Assembly (NCBI GenBank): GCA_937872315.1
Contig: CALMST010000347.1
Coordinates: 1-34,155 of the forward strand
Source: an uncultured Ignavibacteria bacterium
GTDB lineage: Bacteria; Bacteroidota; Ignavibacteria; Tepidaquicellales; Tepidaquicellaceae
DNA: 34,155 nt
Direction of reading: 5' to 3'
Position numbers and translations under genes: made by a program
In this document: piece after piece, positions 9,078-34,058 of the stretch
Position numbering within the stretch: position 1 is the first letter of the stretch
Layout of the letters: every line of letters starts with the position of its first letter
Notes under the pieces: model-generated
The model's input: the letters and a program-made list of their open reading frames with translations, nothing else
What the model was told of the DNA's origin: nothing
The model's database searches: none

Positions 9078-10412
9078 TTACTTTAAAAGAATCATAGATT
9101 TAGTTTCCGAAAACTCCCCTGCCGTGAGCCTGTAATAATAAACACCACTTGGCAAACCTATTCCGTCAAATCCAAACTTATATTTTCCCGGACTTAACTT
9201 TTCATTAACCAAAGTTGCAACTTCCTTACCAACCAAATCATAGACTTTTAAAGAAACAAATCCAAATTCCGAAATTCCAAATTCCAAATTAGTTGAAGGG
9301 TTGAACGGGTTTGGATAATTTTGCTCCAAACTGTATTTTTCCGGAATTTCATTTGAGATATTATTCACGGCAAGAACTGTCTGAAAATTCTGATCATAAA
9401 TACTCTGAACATGATCCGATAAATTCCTTAGTTCAGATATACTGTTCAGATTGCTGCTTCCTCTTGCAATAACCTGAGCGACAATTATAGACTGAGTATC
9501 ATTCGCGCTCATATTGAATGGTCCAAAACTTTGCAGATATCTTCTGTCACTTCCTCCCGACATTATCCAACCAGTTCCCAATACAGGATCTCCCGAATAT
9601 GTTTTTTTTGTAGACTGCCCGTTGGTTGGATTGATCCATGATTCACCTGTATTCCATTTTCCTTCCAATACTCTGTAAGTCTCTGCATAATCCTGTGGAT
9701 CTGCAGGTAAAGGTAATCCGTTATTGTAAGTATTAAATACATTCATACCGGTAAACTTGTATCCGACTTTGACAATAAGATTCTTCGAACCGGGAGGATA
9801 ATAATACCTGGCAGTATCATTATTGTTTCCTGTAAAAATTGCCGGGCTTCTTAGAAGTTTTGTCCCGACAGCCGGAGGAGCCGCCCCGTACACTCCGTCA
9901 TTATCTGTATCATTATATGTAAAAGCTAAATTTCTTAAAGTATCACATCCAATCCTGTCATCTGTTGCAGTTCCCAGATCATCATCAGTCCATATGGCAA
10001 GATAAGTATTAACCCATTCAGTATTGCTTCTGTTAATAATTCTGAATTCTATAAATTGTACATTCTGTAATCCGCCATAATTATAACACCAGTTAGTCTG
10101 CAAAATCTGGGCTTTTAAAGAAGCCAGGCTTCCGTTATTGGATGTATGAGGATAGGCATCAGTGTAAGCATAAAACATTGTCTGTGTACCAAGCCAGTAA
10201 GGCTGACCAGATAAGTTTACATAAGCACCTTGATTTACCGGCCAGTTCTGATAATCAGGTTCTGTAGTATTCCCTATATTTATTTTATAGATCCTGTACA
10301 AAGGATCTGACTCCCCCTGAGGAACACCGTTTGCATCCACGTAGCCGTTCTTAAAATCATAGGAGTATTCAGCTACAGCTGCCAATGTATCATTTCCCGA
10401 TAAGCAACCCAT
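9078..10412 (-). CDS. T9SS cargo protein, main part of a frameshifted gene
   Basis: This 444-residue frame has no signal peptide and begins in the middle of a domain (MGCLSGNDTLAAVAEYSYDF). Reading upstream in the same frame gives SWYRTNGSFNRDPGTG, then NAGFEWPIGSGKTARYASG directly before this Met. I recognise this from memory as a conserved start of large exported Ignavibacteria proteins. The signal peptide lies in another frame at 10451-10690, so the real gene very probably spans 9078-10690 with one base missing near 10524-10526. The body is a beta-rich secreted domain of unknown function. The last 83 residues or so are a T9SS type A sorting domain (NYPNPFNPST, then NLEFGISEFGFVSLK, ending MILLK). 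The sorting domain contains a coding heptamer run at 9258-9290. Either a sequencing error or a true pseudogene. Confidence 0.85.
   Translation of the reverse strand: MGCLSGNDTLAAVAEYSYDFKNGYVDANGVPQGESDPLYRIYKINIGNTTEPDYQNWPVNQGAYVNLSGQPYWLGTQTMFYAYTDAYPHTSNNGSLASLKAQILQTNWCYNYGGLQNVQFIEFRIINRSNTEWVNTYLAIWTDDDLGTATDDRIGCDTLRNLAFTYNDTDNDGVYGAAPPAVGTKLLRSPAIFTGNNNDTARYYYPPGSKNLIVKVGYKFTGMNVFNTYNNGLPLPADPQDYAETYRVLEGKWNTGESWINPTNGQSTKKTYSGDPVLGTGWIMSGGSDRRYLQSFGPFNMSANDTQSIIVAQVIARGSSNLNSISELRNLSDHVQSIYDQNFQTVLAVNNISNEIPEKYSLEQNYPNPFNPSTNLEFGISEFGFVSLKVYDLVGKEVATLVNEKLSPGKYKFGFDGIGLPSGVYYYRLTAGEFSETKSMILLK
9258..9290. repeat. coding heptamer run inside a T9SS sorting domain
   Basis: Nearly 7-base periodic AAATCCA, AATTCCG, AAATTCC, AAATTCC, AAATT on the plus strand. 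On the minus strand it encodes the NLEFGISEFGF segment after NPST. Confidence 0.7.
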
Positions 10413-13269: not shown

Positions 13270-13464
13270 TATAATTTTGTGAAATGCTTTAATTCTCTCA
13301 GAAATACTGTCAAATATATTTCCGGATAAATAAAATAGGTTTTGGTATTTATATTATTCCATCATTTATCAGATAGATTTATGAAACCGAATGTGATATA
13401 TAACTGAAAAAAAATCAGAGTAATGGAGTAATGGAGGAATGTAGAAAAATTCCAGTTTGAACAT

Positions 13465-13592: not shown

Positions 13593-14687
13593 CTATTTCA
13601 ACAGGATCATCTGTTTTGTATCAACAGTCATTCCATCAACTTCCAATCTGTAAAAATAAACTCCGCCTGAAAGCTGAGAATTTATGGTTGAGAATTGATA
13701 TTTGTAATTTCCGGCGGGTATAGATTCATTCACCAATACCGCAACTTCTCTTCCAAGACCATCATAAATTTTTAAAGAAACAAATCCCGATTCCGAAATC
13801 CCAAATTCCAGATTCGTTGAAGGGTTGAACGGATTCGGATAGTTCTGTTTTAATATAAAAGATGAAGGTATTTCAGAATTTATCTGCGTGACGGATGTCG
13901 TATTATTCAGAAAATAAAATGTAACAGTACTGTTTCCCGCATTCGGCACGGCGAGAGTGTCAGAATTTTTATTAACATAAATATCAGCAGGATTACTTAA
14001 ACCACCTGTGACAATTACGGGAGCATTTGTAAAGTTAATATCGTATTTAACCACTGATTGTATTCCCCAGGTTGAAATATATACATTATCATTTCTGTCA
14101 AGAGAAATTCCGTCACAGTTAGAATATGGAGTAATGATAATATTAGATATGACTGAATCAGCAAAGTTGACCTGCTTTACAGGAGCGCTTCCTCCCCAGC
14201 AGCAGATCAGCAATCTGTTTCTTACCGCATCTACATAGACTCCGTTTGGCTGATTTGTTGTAAGCACATAAATCCAGTAATCTGAATTGTTTGTATTTAA
14301 TTTATAAATTCTTCTGTTGGTGAAATCCGAAACATATGCCATACCGGAATTATCAATTGCGATATCATTCAAGAATGAAGAGCCTGTCAATGTTACATTA
14401 AATTCTTCTGCAGCAGTAGTGAGATTATAACCTCTCACTTTGTTTCCGTTACAAACATAAGCTCTGCCGCTGAAAACAGTTATTCCGTGAATACCTCCGC
14501 CGACAGTTACAAAGTCTGTAACAACTCCCTGCAGGTCTCTCTGAACTATCTTCGAACTGCTTGTATTCGATATAAGATATCTGCTTCCTGTAGAATCATA
14601 TGTGACGCTTTCGGGACTGCTGTATTGTGAATAAATATTACCGGGTAGAAATGAGATTGTTATAAGGAGTAAAATAAGTTTTTTCAA
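13593..14687 (-). CDS. secreted NHL/SMP-30-like beta-propeller with T9SS sorting domain
   Basis: The 364-residue protein starts at TTG (14685-14687), giving a clean signal peptide (MKKLILLLITISFLPGNIYS). Residues about 22-270 form a compact propeller in the NHL/SMP-30 style, with repeats such as NDIAIDNSGMAYVSDF, PNGVYVDAVRNRLLIC, CDGISLDRNDNVYIST and PADIYVNKNSDTLAV. The end is a T9SS type A sorting domain (KQNYPNPFNPST, NLEFGISESGFVSLK, MILLK). It contains two heptamer-coded stretches, one of which makes the turn FSTINSQLSGG two residues longer than in its relatives. No lactonase catalytic residues can be asserted, so the role may be structural or ligand-binding. The DUF885 gene lies 82 bp upstream and may be co-transcribed. 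Confidence 0.87.
   Translation of the reverse strand: MKKLILLLITISFLPGNIYSQYSSPESVTYDSTGSRYLISNTSSSKIVQRDLQGVVTDFVTVGGGIHGITVFSGRAYVCNGNKVRGYNLTTAAEEFNVTLTGSSFLNDIAIDNSGMAYVSDFTNRRIYKLNTNNSDYWIYVLTTNQPNGVYVDAVRNRLLICCWGGSAPVKQVNFADSVISNIIITPYSNCDGISLDRNDNVYISTWGIQSVVKYDINFTNAPVIVTGGLSNPADIYVNKNSDTLAVPNAGNSTVTFYFLNNTTSVTQINSEIPSSFILKQNYPNPFNPSTNLEFGISESGFVSLKIYDGLGREVAVLVNESIPAGNYKYQFSTINSQLSGGVYFYRLEVDGMTVDTKQMILLK
13675..13702. repeat. coding heptamer run at the end of a sorting domain
   Basis: Units TGAGAAT, TTATGGT, TGAGAAT, TGATATT read in 7-base steps. On the minus strand they encode FSTINSQLS within the last part of the T9SS domain. Confidence 0.6.
13782..13816. repeat. coding heptamer run inside a T9SS sorting domain
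   Basis: Units AAATCCC, GATTCCG, AAATCCC, AAATTCC, AGATTCG. On the minus strand they encode NLEFGISESGF directly after NPST. Confidence 0.75.
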
Positions 14688-24112: not shown

Positions 24113-24138
24113 AAAAAGGAGCCGCAAAGCTCCTTTTT
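24113..24138 (-). terminator. intrinsic terminator after the choice-of-anchor B gene at 24176
   Basis: AAAAAGGAGC (24113-24122) pairs perfectly with GCTCCTTTTT (24129-24138) around CGCAAA. It directly abuts the heptamer array that leads to the stop codon. Confidence 0.9.
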
Positions 24139-24180
24139 ACCTAATACCTAATACCTATTACCTAATACCTAATACTTATT
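24139..24180. repeat. heptamer tandem array, unit ACCTAAT, ending in a stop codon
   Basis: Units: ACCTAAT twice, ACCTATT, ACCTAAT twice, then ACTTATT (24174-24180). The last unit contains the reverse-complemented TAA stop (24176-24178) of the gene. The array starts exactly at the end of the terminator. Confidence 0.93.
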
Positions 24181-29502: not shown

Positions 29503-31185
29503 TTATTTTACGAGCAGCATCTTCCTGGTAATAGAAAAATTGTTTGCTTCCAAAGTATAGAAATAAATTCCGCTTGATAGATTCGCTCCGTCAAAGCTTA
29601 TGCTGTAATATCCCGCCGGTTTCACCTCATTGACAAGTATTGCGACTTCTTTACCTGAAGCATTAAATACTTTCAAAGAAACAAATCCCAAATCCGAAAT
29701 CCCAAATTCCAGATTCGTAGTGGGATTGAACGGATTGGGATAATTCTGTGACAATTCAAATTTCTCCGGAACGCCGATCAATATTTCGTTGCTTAAATTG
29801 AAATATTCGAAGTTGCCGTTGTAATCTATTTGTTTCAATCTGTATCTGTATTTTCCTGAAGTCAGGTTTCTGTCGGTAAAAGAATAACTATGACTAATCG
29901 GAGATGTACCATTGCCGCTAACATTTCCAATCATAATCCAGTTATCAATTGTCAATTGTCCATTATCAGCTGCTCTTTCTATATCAAATCCCGAGTTGTT
30001 TGTTTCGGTAGCTGTAGTCCAGTTTAAAGTAACACTTCTCTGCTCTGCAGATGAAGTGAAAGAATTAAGTTCAACAGGTAACGGCATGTCTTCAAATTTC
30101 ATAACAGATGTTTTATATTCATGTAACCAATCATAATCCATAAAAGCAATGTAAGGTGTCCCATTGTAAAAAGCCAGGCTGTTACTGTAAATTTCTCCAA
30201 AAGAAAAATCACCTTTACCAACATTTTCCCATCCGCTTCCATTAAATTTCATAATTGTAATCTGTCTATCATTTTCCTCAGAAGAAAAAGCAACATAAGG
30301 AATGTTATTATCAAAGACCAGGCATTGATAATATGTAAATCCCGGAGAAAATCCCTGATCGCCAACATACACCCAGTCAGATCCATTAAATTTCATTACA
30401 GTTGTTTTATTTTCCACAGTGTGATCCAGAAATGCAACAAAAGGGATACCTCCATTGACTGCTATGCTCTGGTAATCTGATTCTCCGGCCGAAAAACCCC
30501 TGATACCAACGTTTACCCAGGAAGTCCCGTTAAATTTCATTACAGTGGTTTTTTTCTCAATCAGCAAATCCTGAAAAGCTACATATGGAGTGTCTCCGCC
30601 AAATGCAAAACTGCAATATAATGATGGTCCTGCGGAAAATCCCGGGTCACCAACATTTATCCAGTTCGCACCATCATATTTTTTAACAGTAGTTTTACTT
30701 CCGTTTTCACCATCAGTAAAACTCACATATGGAATGTTTTCTTTAATTTTTAATACCGGAAATATTGATAAAGTATTTGGAAAACCGGGATTGCCGACGT
30801 TTTCCCAATTCACTCCATTAAACTTCACAACTTTGGTTACAATTGTATTAATGCCTACTTCACTAAAAGCCAGATATGGAATATCCTCTATGAAGTCTAA
30901 GCTAAAATAACCTGCTGTTTCATTGGAAAATCCCGGGTCACCAACATAAGACCATGTGTTATTATAAAATTTCATAACAGTGGCTTTTTCGTCATTTGCT
31001 CCGTCTCTGAAAGCTACATATGGCGTACTGCCATTAAATGCGATACTTTGATAATCGGAACTACTTTCAGTAAAACCCTGAGGACCAACATAAACCCACT
31101 GTGCCTGTGTGCTGATTGAAATGAATGTGATCAAAAATATAATAAGAGATTTGTATATGTAAATAACTGAAACAGATTTTTTCAT
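29503..31185 (-). CDS. secreted seven-repeat beta-propeller with FN3-like linker and T9SS sorting domain
   Basis: The 560-residue protein has a signal peptide (about 1-28, ending STQAQ). Seven repeats of about 50 residues then run to about residue 375, each with WxxVGxxGF, then IPYVAFxD and TTVMKFNG, most simply a seven-bladed propeller. An FN3-like domain (LPVELNSF, VTLNWTTATETNNSGFDIER) and a T9SS type A sorting domain (SQNYPNPFNPTT to MLLVK) follow. The FN3 loop contains heptamer-coded DNGQLTIDNW, and the sorting domain contains NLEFGISDLGFVSLK. The last 80 residues or so are almost identical to those of the next gene upstream, although the N-terminal parts are unrelated. It is the last of three closely spaced minus-strand genes (gaps of 46 and 40 bp). 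Confidence 0.9.
   Translation of the reverse strand: MKKSVSVIYIYKSLIIFLITFISISTQAQWVYVGPQGFTESSSDYQSIAFNGSTPYVAFRDGANDEKATVMKFYNNTWSYVGDPGFSNETAGYFSLDFIEDIPYLAFSEVGINTIVTKVVKFNGVNWENVGNPGFPNTLSIFPVLKIKENIPYVSFTDGENGSKTTVKKYDGANWINVGDPGFSAGPSLYCSFAFGGDTPYVAFQDLLIEKKTTVMKFNGTSWVNVGIRGFSAGESDYQSIAVNGGIPFVAFLDHTVENKTTVMKFNGSDWVYVGDQGFSPGFTYYQCLVFDNNIPYVAFSSEENDRQITIMKFNGSGWENVGKGDFSFGEIYSNSLAFYNGTPYIAFMDYDWLHEYKTSVMKFEDMPLPVELNSFTSSAEQRSVTLNWTTATETNNSGFDIERAADNGQLTIDNWIMIGNVSGNGTSPISHSYSFTDRNLTSGKYRYRLKQIDYNGNFEYFNLSNEILIGVPEKFELSQNYPNPFNPTTNLEFGISDLGFVSLKVFNASGKEVAILVNEVKPAGYYSISFDGANLSSGIYFYTLEANNFSITRKMLLVK
29683..29717. repeat. coding heptamer run inside a T9SS sorting domain
   Basis: Units AAATCCC, AAATCCG, AAATCCC, AAATTCC, AGATTCG. 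The minus strand reads NLEFGISDLGF. Identical to the run at 31412. Confidence 0.85.
29943..29970. repeat. coding heptamer run in an FN3-like loop
   Basis: Units TATCAAT, TGTCAAT, TGTCCAT, TATCAGC. On the minus strand they encode ADNGQLTIDN, at a loop where the paralog at 32688 has a shorter sequence (ANSSGNW). Confidence 0.75.
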
Positions 31186-31231: not shown

Positions 31232-32647
31232 CTATTTTACGAGCAGCATCTTCTTGGTAATAGAAAAATTGTTTGCTTCCAAAGTATAGAAATAAATTCC
31301 GCTTGATAAATTCGCTCCGTCAAAACTTATGCTGTAATATCCCGCCGGTTTAACCTCATTGACAAGTATTGCGACTTCTTTACCTGAAGCATTAAATACT
31401 TTCAAAGAAACAAATCCCAAATCCGAAATCCCAAATTCCAGATTCGTAGTGGGGTTGAAAGGATTAGGATAATTCTGGGATAATTCAAATTTTGAAGGAA
31501 CACCAATCACGACTTCACTGGTCAGATCGAAATATTCAAAGTTACCGTTGAAATCAACCTGCTTAAGTCTGTAGTTGTATTTTCCTGAAGATAAATTATA
31601 ATCTGTAAAAGAATAGTTGTTTGTTAATACCGATGTACCGTTACCTTCAACACTTCCGGCTTTATTCCACACATGTGGATTTCCGCCTGATTCAGCTGAA
31701 GATCTTTCAATTACAAATACCGCATTATTTTTCTCTTCAGAAGTTGTCCAGTTAAGCGTTACATTATTTTTATTTACGATTGAATTAAAAGAGGATAATT
31801 CCACCGGAAGCACAGGATCAGTATAACCAAATCCTTTGAGACCAATCGGAATAGTATCGTAAACTTCAGTAAATCCGGAAGAAGAAATAGATACAGCTCT
31901 GAAAACAGACCCGGGAAAAAGAGATTTATCAGCAGCTGCAAAAAGTCCGTTCCCGACATAAACCGCTCCTGTTACTCTATCGTAAGGAGATCCGGAGAGG
32001 GGTACTGGTGTTGCTACAAGAGTAGTAAGATTTATCTTTGTTAAATTCCTGTCGCCTCCTAAATCTTCTGAGCCTGACCAGTGATAGATCATTCCATCTG
32101 AATAATTATATGAAATCACATGAGAATCATCTGCACCGTAATTTCCGACAGGAGTTACAGCAGCAGTATTTATATTTACAATTCCAAGCTGCCTTTGCTG
32201 TCCAAAAGGAGCTTCTGAATTTGATATAGCATAGAGTTTACCCGCATCAGAGTCATATGTCAACGATTCATAACCGTCTCCCATGAGACCGATGTATTCG
32301 CACACGCCTGTGTACGGATCAACTCTGGCAAGATAAACCGGCGAAATTCCTATACCTCCCTGCAAATAAAGAATAACATAATAATTTATATCATCGGAAT
32401 TCCATGTAACCGAAGCTGCGCCTGAGACAGTATATGACGGCATCGTTAACTTTGAAATTGATAAAGGCTGAAAAGTTATATTATCTATTACATATATAGA
32501 ATCAGCATATACTGCTACAAATTCAGCTTGAGAATTTCCGGGTTGTACAGCTGTTAAAATCAGTAATACAAAAAATGCCATTATTATTTTAAATCCGGAA
32601 TTCATTTTCTTAATTTCAGGATCTTTTTTCGTAAATATATTTTTCAT
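31232..32647 (-). CDS. secreted propeller-like protein with FN3-like linker and T9SS sorting domain
   Basis: The 471-residue protein begins with a charged stretch before its hydrophobic signal core (IIMAFFVLLILTAVQPGNSQA, residues about 21-41 as read in two parts). If a later Met at residue 15 is used, the signal peptide is of normal length. The N-terminal domain (about 42-275) has TWNSDDINYYVILY, VDPYTGVCEYIG, ESLTYDSDAGKLYAIS and ISYNYSDGMIYHW blocks, a propeller-like fold shared with the gene at 32688; no named family is asserted. An FN3-like domain (LPVELSSF) and a sorting domain (SQNYPNPFNPTT to MLLVK) follow. The sorting domain is nearly identical in DNA to that of the gene at 29503. 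Middle gene of a probable three-gene transcript. Confidence 0.87.
   Translation of the reverse strand: MKNIFTKKDPEIKKMNSGFKIIMAFFVLLILTAVQPGNSQAEFVAVYADSIYVIDNITFQPLSISKLTMPSYTVSGAASVTWNSDDINYYVILYLQGGIGISPVYLARVDPYTGVCEYIGLMGDGYESLTYDSDAGKLYAISNSEAPFGQQRQLGIVNINTAAVTPVGNYGADDSHVISYNYSDGMIYHWSGSEDLGGDRNLTKINLTTLVATPVPLSGSPYDRVTGAVYVGNGLFAAADKSLFPGSVFRAVSISSSGFTEVYDTIPIGLKGFGYTDPVLPVELSSFNSIVNKNNVTLNWTTSEEKNNAVFVIERSSAESGGNPHVWNKAGSVEGNGTSVLTNNYSFTDYNLSSGKYNYRLKQVDFNGNFEYFDLTSEVVIGVPSKFELSQNYPNPFNPTTNLEFGISDLGFVSLKVFNASGKEVAILVNEVKPAGYYSISFDGANLSSGIYFYTLEANNFSITKKMLLVK
31412..31446. repeat. coding heptamer run inside a T9SS sorting domain
   Basis: Units AAATCCC, AAATCCG, AAATCCC, AAATTCC, AGATTCG, identical to the run at 29683. 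Together with its flanks it is part of the duplicated sorting-domain segment. Confidence 0.85.
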
Positions 32648-32687: not shown

Positions 32688-34058
32688 TTATTTAACCAGT
32701 AACATTTTTTTTGTAATGCTCTTACTATCAGATGTTAATTTATAAAAATATACTCCGCTTGAAAGTGATGAACTTCCTGTAACAGAAAAATTAACAGAGT
32801 AATAGCCTGCAGTTTTGAATTCATTCACAAGAGTAACAACTTCCCTGCCGGAGTTGTCATAAACTGATAAATTCACGATCCCGTCTTCCGGTAACTGGAA
32901 TTCAATTTTTGTTGAGGGATTGAATGGATTAGGGTAATTCTGGGATAACTCAAAATTCTCAGGCACACCTATAACTACTTCACTGTTCAGATCGAAATAT
33001 TCAAAATTACCGTTGAAATCGATCTGTTTCAGTCTGTAGTTGTATTTTCCAGATGATAAATTCTTGTCTGTGTATTCATAATTTTGAGCGGAAGAGGTAG
33101 TTCCATGGCCTGATACATTACCTATATTTATCCAGTTACCTGAAGAGTTAGCTCTTTCAATGTTAAAGCCTGAATTATTGATCTCATAAGAAGTTGACCA
33201 ATTCAATGTTATGTTGTTTCCAGCGGCAAAATAATTGAAAGCAGATAATTCAACAGGAAGTAACGGATCCACATAGCCAAGTCCCCCGCTGACAAATGTT
33301 TGAGGATCAGCATAAAGAGAAGCAACTCCGCTTGTATTTATTGTATAAGCTCCCGGTGGAACTACCGGTATGGGAAAATATCCGGCAGAGACCGCTATAA
33401 AATTATTTCCACCTCTATATACAACCGCCCTGATGTAATCAAATGGATCTCCGGTGACAGGTATATTGGCAGATAAAAACGGGAACTGTGTACTGATCTT
33501 CTCCAATTGATGTGTAGTGGAACCGGTAGGATCAGAAGGAAATGAATAAACAAAGCCGTCACTGTAATTATATGCTATTATATCTGATGAAAAAGGTCCG
33601 CCGCCGAGATTTGTTACTGTACCGTCTGAAAGATTTACTATCCGAAGACTGTTTTTTATACAGTACATTTGCCCCAGATCAGAATTATATGTTAATGAAT
33701 AATATTGAGCATCCATAGGACCAATCTCCGTACAGATCCCCGTAGCAGGGTCAACTGTAACCAGACGGCAAGTATCATCAGCATCCGCCTGAACAGTAGC
33801 ATAATACAGAAGGTCATCAGAGTTCCAGGTTACGCAGTATCCCTGAACATTTGAATAACCGGACATTGTTAAAGGTAATTCGGTTGTTACCGGTAACCAT
33901 GTGGTTTCATTGAAAATCTGAATATAAAAACTATTCACAATTCCGACAACATCAGCTTTCAACTGAAACGGAAATATCAACATGATAAATATGACTGCTG
34001 ATATACCTGCATTAATAAAATTATTTTTGATTTTACTTTTGATAGAAAATTTATTCAT
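32688..34058 (-). CDS. secreted propeller-like protein with FN3-like linker and T9SS sorting domain
   Basis: The 456-residue protein has a signal peptide with a basic start (hydrophobic core about 17-33, cleavage near LKADV). An N-terminal domain paralogous to that at 31232 follows, with TWNSDDLLYYATVQAD, VDPATGICTEIGPMD, YSLTYNSDLGQMYCI and IIAYNYSDGFVYSF. Then come an FN3-like domain (LPVELSAF, ITLNWSTSYEINNSGFNIER) and a T9SS type A sorting domain (SQNYPNPFNPST to MLLVK). Its sorting domain has KIEFQLPEDGIVNLS, so it kept a non-heptamer form, unlike its two neighbours. First gene of the probable three-gene transcript; AT-rich leader to the right edge with no clear promoter. Confidence 0.88.
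   Translation of the reverse strand: MNKFSIKSKIKNNFINAGISAVIFIMLIFPFQLKADVVGIVNSFYIQIFNETTWLPVTTELPLTMSGYSNVQGYCVTWNSDDLLYYATVQADADDTCRLVTVDPATGICTEIGPMDAQYYSLTYNSDLGQMYCIKNSLRIVNLSDGTVTNLGGGPFSSDIIAYNYSDGFVYSFPSDPTGSTTHQLEKISTQFPFLSANIPVTGDPFDYIRAVVYRGGNNFIAVSAGYFPIPVVPPGAYTINTSGVASLYADPQTFVSGGLGYVDPLLPVELSAFNYFAAGNNITLNWSTSYEINNSGFNIERANSSGNWINIGNVSGHGTTSSAQNYEYTDKNLSSGKYNYRLKQIDFNGNFEYFDLNSEVVIGVPENFELSQNYPNPFNPSTKIEFQLPEDGIVNLSVYDNSGREVVTLVNEFKTAGYYSVNFSVTGSSSLSSGVYFYKLTSDSKSITKKMLLVK

Follow-up and report, generated by a model that had tools for sequence, protein, structure and literature searches.

Heptamer repeats code for segments at three recurrent sites of an FN3-like and sorting-domain module in an Ignavibacteria genome

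Results

A degenerate heptamer tract encodes a loop of an FN3-like domain

The DNA analyzed here (the window) is a 34,155-nt contig of an uncultured Ignavibacteria bacterium, and it carries a gene for a secreted protein with an FN3-like domain and a type IX sorting domain (Table 1; G and L numbers in the text are our own labels). The sorting domain matched PF18962 at 36 bits, above a cut-off of 27, and an AlphaFold2 model (67 relatives) reached a mean pLDDT of 92 for the FN3 plus sorting module. The modeled fold resembles tandem FNIII structures (E about 1e-5) and PorU, and the domain is thus predicted to have an FN3 beta-sandwich fold. A Pfam fn3 match was absent for it at E 0.001; hence, we call the domain FN3-like by fold only. 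Residues 43–52 of the model are a coil between strands 20–42 and 53–64, and they are its lowest-confidence stretch. Because a full-length ortholog was missing from 59 relatives, where only residues 363–560 found a good match, the domain family was used for comparisons.

The C-C' loop of this domain consists of 11 residues (AADNGQLTIDN) encoded by four degenerate TTGAYAA heptamers. As the original prediction had it, the units TATCAAT, TGTCAAT, TGTCCAT, and TATCAGC (29943–29970) code for ADNGQLTIDN; they are read on the minus strand, with 15 of 21 lag-7 matches. The paralogous domain at 32688 was also rightly said to be about five residues shorter at this point, its loop (ANSSGN) having 6 residues versus 11. 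We compared the lag-7 score of the focal loop with three null models, namely a shuffle of the loop's own codons (P = 0.00035), a whole-gene shuffle (P = 0.0035), and a resampling of synonymous codons (P = 0.05). The third result implies that the peptide already holds most of the focal periodicity. On its own, therefore, the focal site is suggestive, and the case rests on the genome.

Table 1. Features of the window
Feature	Position	Strand	Basis or remark
Secreted protein, 560 aa	29503..31185	-	Repeat region at the N terminus (unassigned), then FN3-like and type IX sorting domains
FN3-like + Por_Secre_tail module	29506..30093	-	Basis of all comparisons; AlphaFold2 pLDDT 92; PDB/PorU FN3-type matches; PF18962
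FN3 C-C' loop AADNGQLTIDN, degenerate TTGAYAA heptamers	29941..29973	-	Lag-7 score; coil 43–52 in AlphaFold2 model
Plain 6-residue loop ANSSGN	33135..33152	-	Paralogous gene 32688–34058; no heptamer
Site 2, NLEFGISDLGFVS, GGATTTG/GGATTTC heptamers, length-neutral	29677..29715	-	Sorting domain of gene 29503–31185
Site 2, heptamer-coded, identical to 29677..29715	31406..31444	-	Neighboring gene 31232–32647
Site 2, heptamer-coded, NLEFGISESGFVS	13776..13814	-	Gene 13593–14687
Site 2, heptamer-coded, NLEFGISEFGFVS	9252..9290	-	Gene 9078–10412
Site 3 STINSQLS, 8 residues instead of 6, decayed TCAATTA-type heptamers	13668..13691	-	Clean homologs L126, L128
Intergenic perfect array ACTCAAT x7.4, contig end	1..52		Period-7 array
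Intergenic array TACCCAA x6.4, adjoins stop codon	16666..16710		Period-7 array; degraded in G002
Intergenic array TACCTAA x5.4	24138..24175		Period-7 array

Heptamer tracts recur at three sites of the module

We scored 321 FN3 plus type IX sorting modules from the window's own genome and its relatives. Lag-7 tracts scoring at least 9 were present in 43 of them, against 0–3 domains at other lags, and period-7 tracts were virtually confined to three places, namely the C-C' loop, the strand-turn that comes first in the sorting domain (site 2), and the last loop of that domain (site 3). The C-C' loop has 5–7 residues in 100 of 151 domains and is longer in the remaining 51; long loops without heptamers also exist. 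At least six unit families fill this loop: TTGAYAA (the window, L002, L136, L144, and three genes of L133), TTCAATG (L113, L137, L004, and L120), GTCAGAC (L135, L147, and L132), and, at single loci, AGAAATC (L085), ACAGAAG (L013), and AGTCAAA (L060). Hence, at least about six separate fillings of the loop are required if families do not interconvert in place. About seven families occupy site 2 (AATTTGG, TCAATTA, GTCAATG, AAGTTCA, TTATCAG, AATATTC, and GTGAAAC). Heptamer and plain states switch at least 10 times on a module tree of 141 columns, which is weakly resolved, and independent origins are thus known only roughly. The coding tracts are related by descent, and their counts are not counts of independent events.

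Site 3 measures 6 residues in 188 of 212 domains. A coding TGAGAAT array at 13675–13702 had been credited with making the last turn of the sorting domain in gene 13593–14687 two residues longer. The loop is indeed longer (8 versus 6 residues), but only units 1 and 3 read TGAGAAT, and the stretch has 11 of 21 lag-7 matches and a score of 4. We rejected TGAGAAT as an independent heptamer and prefer a decayed array of the TCAATTA type because L126 and L128, which also have an 8-residue loop, are clean heptamer arrays.

Elsewhere in the window, the sorting domains of the neighboring genes 29503–31185 and 31232–32647 are near-identical and their site 2 DNA is identical, suggesting a recent gene conversion.

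Period-7 arrays are abundant in intergenic DNA, and their units are shared

Across 296 kb of the window's own genome, we found 48 periodic segments at lag 7, as opposed to 0–7 at the other lags from 4 to 13, and a Markov sequence control gave no lag-7 segment. Tandem 7-nt units thus exceed other periods, as in bacterial heptanucleotide simple sequence repeats. In sampled stretches of the same assembly, picked partly by FN3 or sorting-domain hits, arrays occurred at 0.24 per 10 kb inside long ORFs and 4.6 per 10 kb outside, i.e., they were ~19 times rarer inside. Intergenic arrays turn over, the same gap holding different units or none between species. Contigs of the assembly often start or finish in heptamer arrays (positions 1–52 of the window and the ends of L111, L113, L118, and L129); arrays therefore break the assembly, and the counts are too low.

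Unit families are shared between unrelated loci and across the phylum. The genic units TTGAYAA and TTCAATG match 10 and 13 intergenic arrays, respectively, versus a null mean of 0.76, while the coding units GTCAGAC and AGAAATC were not seen among the sampled intergenic arrays. A 20-nt stretch, GATAATGGACAATTGAYAAT, is shared without mismatch by an HsdR gene and the FN3 loop and includes a rare GG change. The pattern TCAATNNTCAATNNTCAAT occurs in 63 of 247 sampled Bacteroidota, with most hits (181) in the window's genome. In other Bacteroidota, TCAATTG arrays code for the hydrophobic cores of signal peptides in three proteins of other families (L245, L246, and L247; AIVNCQLSIAQ, SIVNCQLLIVNC, and VVNCQLSIVNF).

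These data bear on whether the periodicity merely reflects peptide composition, with alternating strand residues and Asn/Gln/Ile-rich loops, together with gene conversion between paralogs. Such a reading would agree with the synonymous resampling at the focal loop and with the AATTTGG tract of the sorting domain, which spread by kinship and gene conversion (29677–29715 equals 31406–31444). We nevertheless hold it to be very improbable given the 43 hits at lag 7 against 0–2 for other lags in the same sites, the many unit families, the abundance of intergenic arrays of the same kind, and the HsdR and signal-peptide cases outside the module family.

Strand and stop codons decide which arrays are found in genes

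Because a 7-nt unit yields an identical residue cycle in every frame, frame is irrelevant, and it is strand and stop codons that decide. The original prediction that heptamers are tolerated in all frames is therefore a truism for a 7-nt unit, and what matters is strand and stop content. Stop-free units make up 37 of 42 coding tracts; among non-coding arrays, the share is 91 of 270 strand readings (34%; P = 1.6e-11, with no correction for kinship). In a perfect TTGAYAA array, TGA comes into frame every 21 nt. Coding copies on the same strand (module loop and HsdR) carry GGA in place of TGA, and the TGA forms are either non-coding or read on the opposite strand as INYQLS. This association is partly forced because no open frame can contain the TGA form. 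A single GG copy in non-coding DNA (L235) shows that the GG variant need not have arisen within a gene. The arrays are thus mostly intergenic and stop-free in orientation within ORFs, as is characteristic of heptanucleotide repeats.

Heptamers expand one loop and replace other segments at constant length

Heptamer-coded C-C' loops comprise 10–18 residues versus the usual 5–7, so residues were added. TTGAYAA loops of 11 and 18 residues differ by a step of exactly 21 nt, or three heptamers, and L132 has a clean 24-nt addition relative to L114. We recognized no target duplications at the edges in L132/L114 or in the FN3 paralogs; the flanks are only ~73% alike. Site 2 behaves otherwise: the segment is exactly 21 residues long in 281 of 296 cases, with or without heptamers. 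In HsdR (L125), the heptamer-coded peptide VDNGQLIIDN lies between the HSDR_N domain (6–223) and the SWI2/SNF2 ATPase domain (320–543), where it stands in for a segment of equal length in three orthologs; a fourth ortholog has a net 6 residues more in the aligned stretch. A third case comes from an enzyme of another Bacteroidota family, putatively of the GH3 type by its sequence. Its signal peptide is built from TCAATTG units in two species and from degenerate heptamers in the same phase in a third (15 of 33 lag-7 matches; shuffle P = 0.005), and a sister clade lacks heptamers. All forms have 23 residues, and DNA identity between clades is 0.29–0.36 at the signal peptide versus 0.79–0.83 just downstream.

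The original prediction of heptamers inserting into surface loops hence describes only part of these observations. It fits the FN3 loop, which is expanded and filled by unrelated families, but heptamer-coded segments also include a beta-strand, a linker between domains, and the cores of signal peptides, and site 2, HsdR, and the signal peptide were replaced at constant length.

We considered two origins for such tracts. First, the arrays might be mobile elements of very small size; a dedicated activity would copy them into other arrays and into genes, a mode that has been proposed for TAACTGA repeats. The same units at unrelated loci and in unrelated genera, the single variant with its rare GG change common to HsdR and the FN3 loop, and the clean addition in L132 would all be explained. 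We still judge this origin quite unlikely: constant ends and target duplications were not found, length changes of 0, +2, +4, +5, +7, +8, and +12 residues indicate no fixed element, several sites are length-neutral, and neighboring units drift within one array. Second, each tract might have grown by local slippage from a resident seed of 7–9 nt, with shared families reflecting a shared preference for seeds. This would account for the 21-nt steps, for gradual forms such as L258, and for an intergenic unit that differs between species but keeps its phase (GAATTAA versus GAATTTG). It should change length, however, and it leaves unexplained the matches of genic TTGAYAA and TTCAATG to intergenic arrays far above the null mean and the occurrence of one and the same variant in both HsdR and the FN3 loop; we regard it as unlikely.

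Heptamer loops are conserved within the genus

The prediction had proposed comparing orthologs for presence or absence of the loop and had named as contrary evidence orthologs that all carry the same loop with no heptamer character in their DNA. We found the focal heptamer loop to be common to the genus, and the best matches outside the genus had plain loops, a pattern onto which that alternative does not map cleanly. Between species of the genus, plain C-C' loops are 43–83% identical versus 79–93% for their flanks (12 pairs). Heptamer loops showed 97 versus 91%, 100 versus 88%, and 95 versus 77% (loops of G000, G001, and G002, a small sample), and the pair that includes the window showed 91% in the loop versus 74% in the flank. 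Being more conserved than plain loops, heptamer loops may not be neutral now. This conservation may reflect selection on the peptide, homogenization of units, or later copying.

Judged from these identities, conservation would count against a hypervariable use of the loops. Arrays serving as a device to diversify surface loops, like contingency loci or diversity-generating retroelements, could explain why several families fill one site in the loops of secreted proteins. Heptamer loops are 95–100% identical against 77–91% in flanks, plain loops evolve faster than their flanks, and HsdR and signal peptides contain these tracts as well; such a device strikes us as scarcely credible.

Unrelated dispersed repeats occupy the same sites

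Genomes of the genus carry scattered copies of the palindrome TCCGCC-NNN-GGCGGA (3, 2, and 7; control 0), and 4 of the 12 copies lie at the three sites of the module: the C-C' loop in L132, site 2 in L113 and L137, and site 3 in L147. In other genomes (L056 and L044), the C-C' loop holds GCACAGATT-NNN-AATCTGTGC, which has 40 copies in its genome (≤2 mismatches; control 0), and a GGTCATCCTGAGC repeat found at 17 places (≤1 mismatch; control 0). Only particular dispersed palindromes concentrate at the three sites, whereas inverted repeats as a class do not. Since unrelated repeats enter the same sites, these sites are general sinks for small dispersed DNA, and it is protein tolerance, not heptamer targeting, that fixes the positions.

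Discussion

Probably, a genome-wide period-7 mutational process is at work and is filtered by protein tolerance. An active process would make and turn over short heptamer arrays, mostly in intergenic DNA, and arrays inside genes would be kept only if the coding strand is stop-free and the protein has room for an arbitrary peptide. In the FN3 plus sorting module, the C-C' loop, site 2, and site 3 would be such permissive places; DNA of the FN3 loop would have been expanded, and elsewhere DNA would mostly have been overwritten with little or no change in length. We infer that arrays are generated in a 7-nt register by template misalignment or slippage, with some short copying out of other arrays, and not by a transposase; the heptamer peptides would have been neutral at origin and would then have come under selection at the protein level. 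The shared families and the GATAATGGACAATTGAYAAT stretch common to HsdR and the FN3 loop are not predicted by purely local slippage, which counts against this explanation. More tentatively, length-neutral template copying in a 7-nt register may rewrite 20–40 nt of coding DNA in place across Bacteroidota, supplying loops, strands, and signal-peptide cores, some of which would then be kept by selection.

We regard the heptamer-coded peptides as a variant that extends known heptanucleotide repeats. TAACTGA repeats occur in Beggiatoaceae, cyanobacteria, and Bacteroidetes, in an orientation set by stop-codon logic, and those that are coding lie mostly at protein ends (PMC4679880); the G-rich heptamer GGGAATC is repeated in Xanthomonas and Nostoc (PMC4692102). 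The arrays described here are likewise 7-nt, dispersed, mainly intergenic, patchy, and stop-free in ORFs. They differ from those repeats (PMC4679880; PMC4692102) in that many AT-rich families coexist in one genome, one conserved domain is filled repeatedly at the same internal positions, and replacement is length-neutral with conservation between species. In the open-licence papers searched, neither heptamer-coded FN3 or sorting-domain segments nor repeated filling of the same site by many families nor length-neutral replacement was described.

In SSR contingency loci, too, tandem repeats lie within or close to surface-protein genes; the heptamer coding tracts, in contrast, are degenerate and conserved, and their length steps preserve the frame. 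Rickettsia palindromic elements are in-frame selfish DNA within proteins; as with heptamer tracts, unrelated proteins tolerate the small repeated DNA in frame where a site is permissive. Heptamer tracts are much shorter, and several unrelated families are found per site. They lack the palindrome and constant ends of the Rickettsia type, and the palindromes that do occur at the three sites are elements distinct from them.

Heptanucleotide repeats have so far been treated chiefly as intergenic curiosities; here, they give rise to protein sequence again and again, and at sites that can be predicted. With dozens of copies per genome and in many genomes, the domain makes the entry of repeats into genes directly countable. 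Moreover, the three module sites, HsdR, and the signal peptide provide presence/absence pairs to separate slippage, transposition, and template switching.

Two further observations concern the tracts themselves. Positions 1128–1226 of L113 form an unbroken period-7 tract with a drifting unit (AATTAAC, AATTAAG, ATGAGTT, AAGTTAC, and AATTACG), and an intergenic array of period 8, GAGTAATG x3, lies at 13418–13441 of the window.
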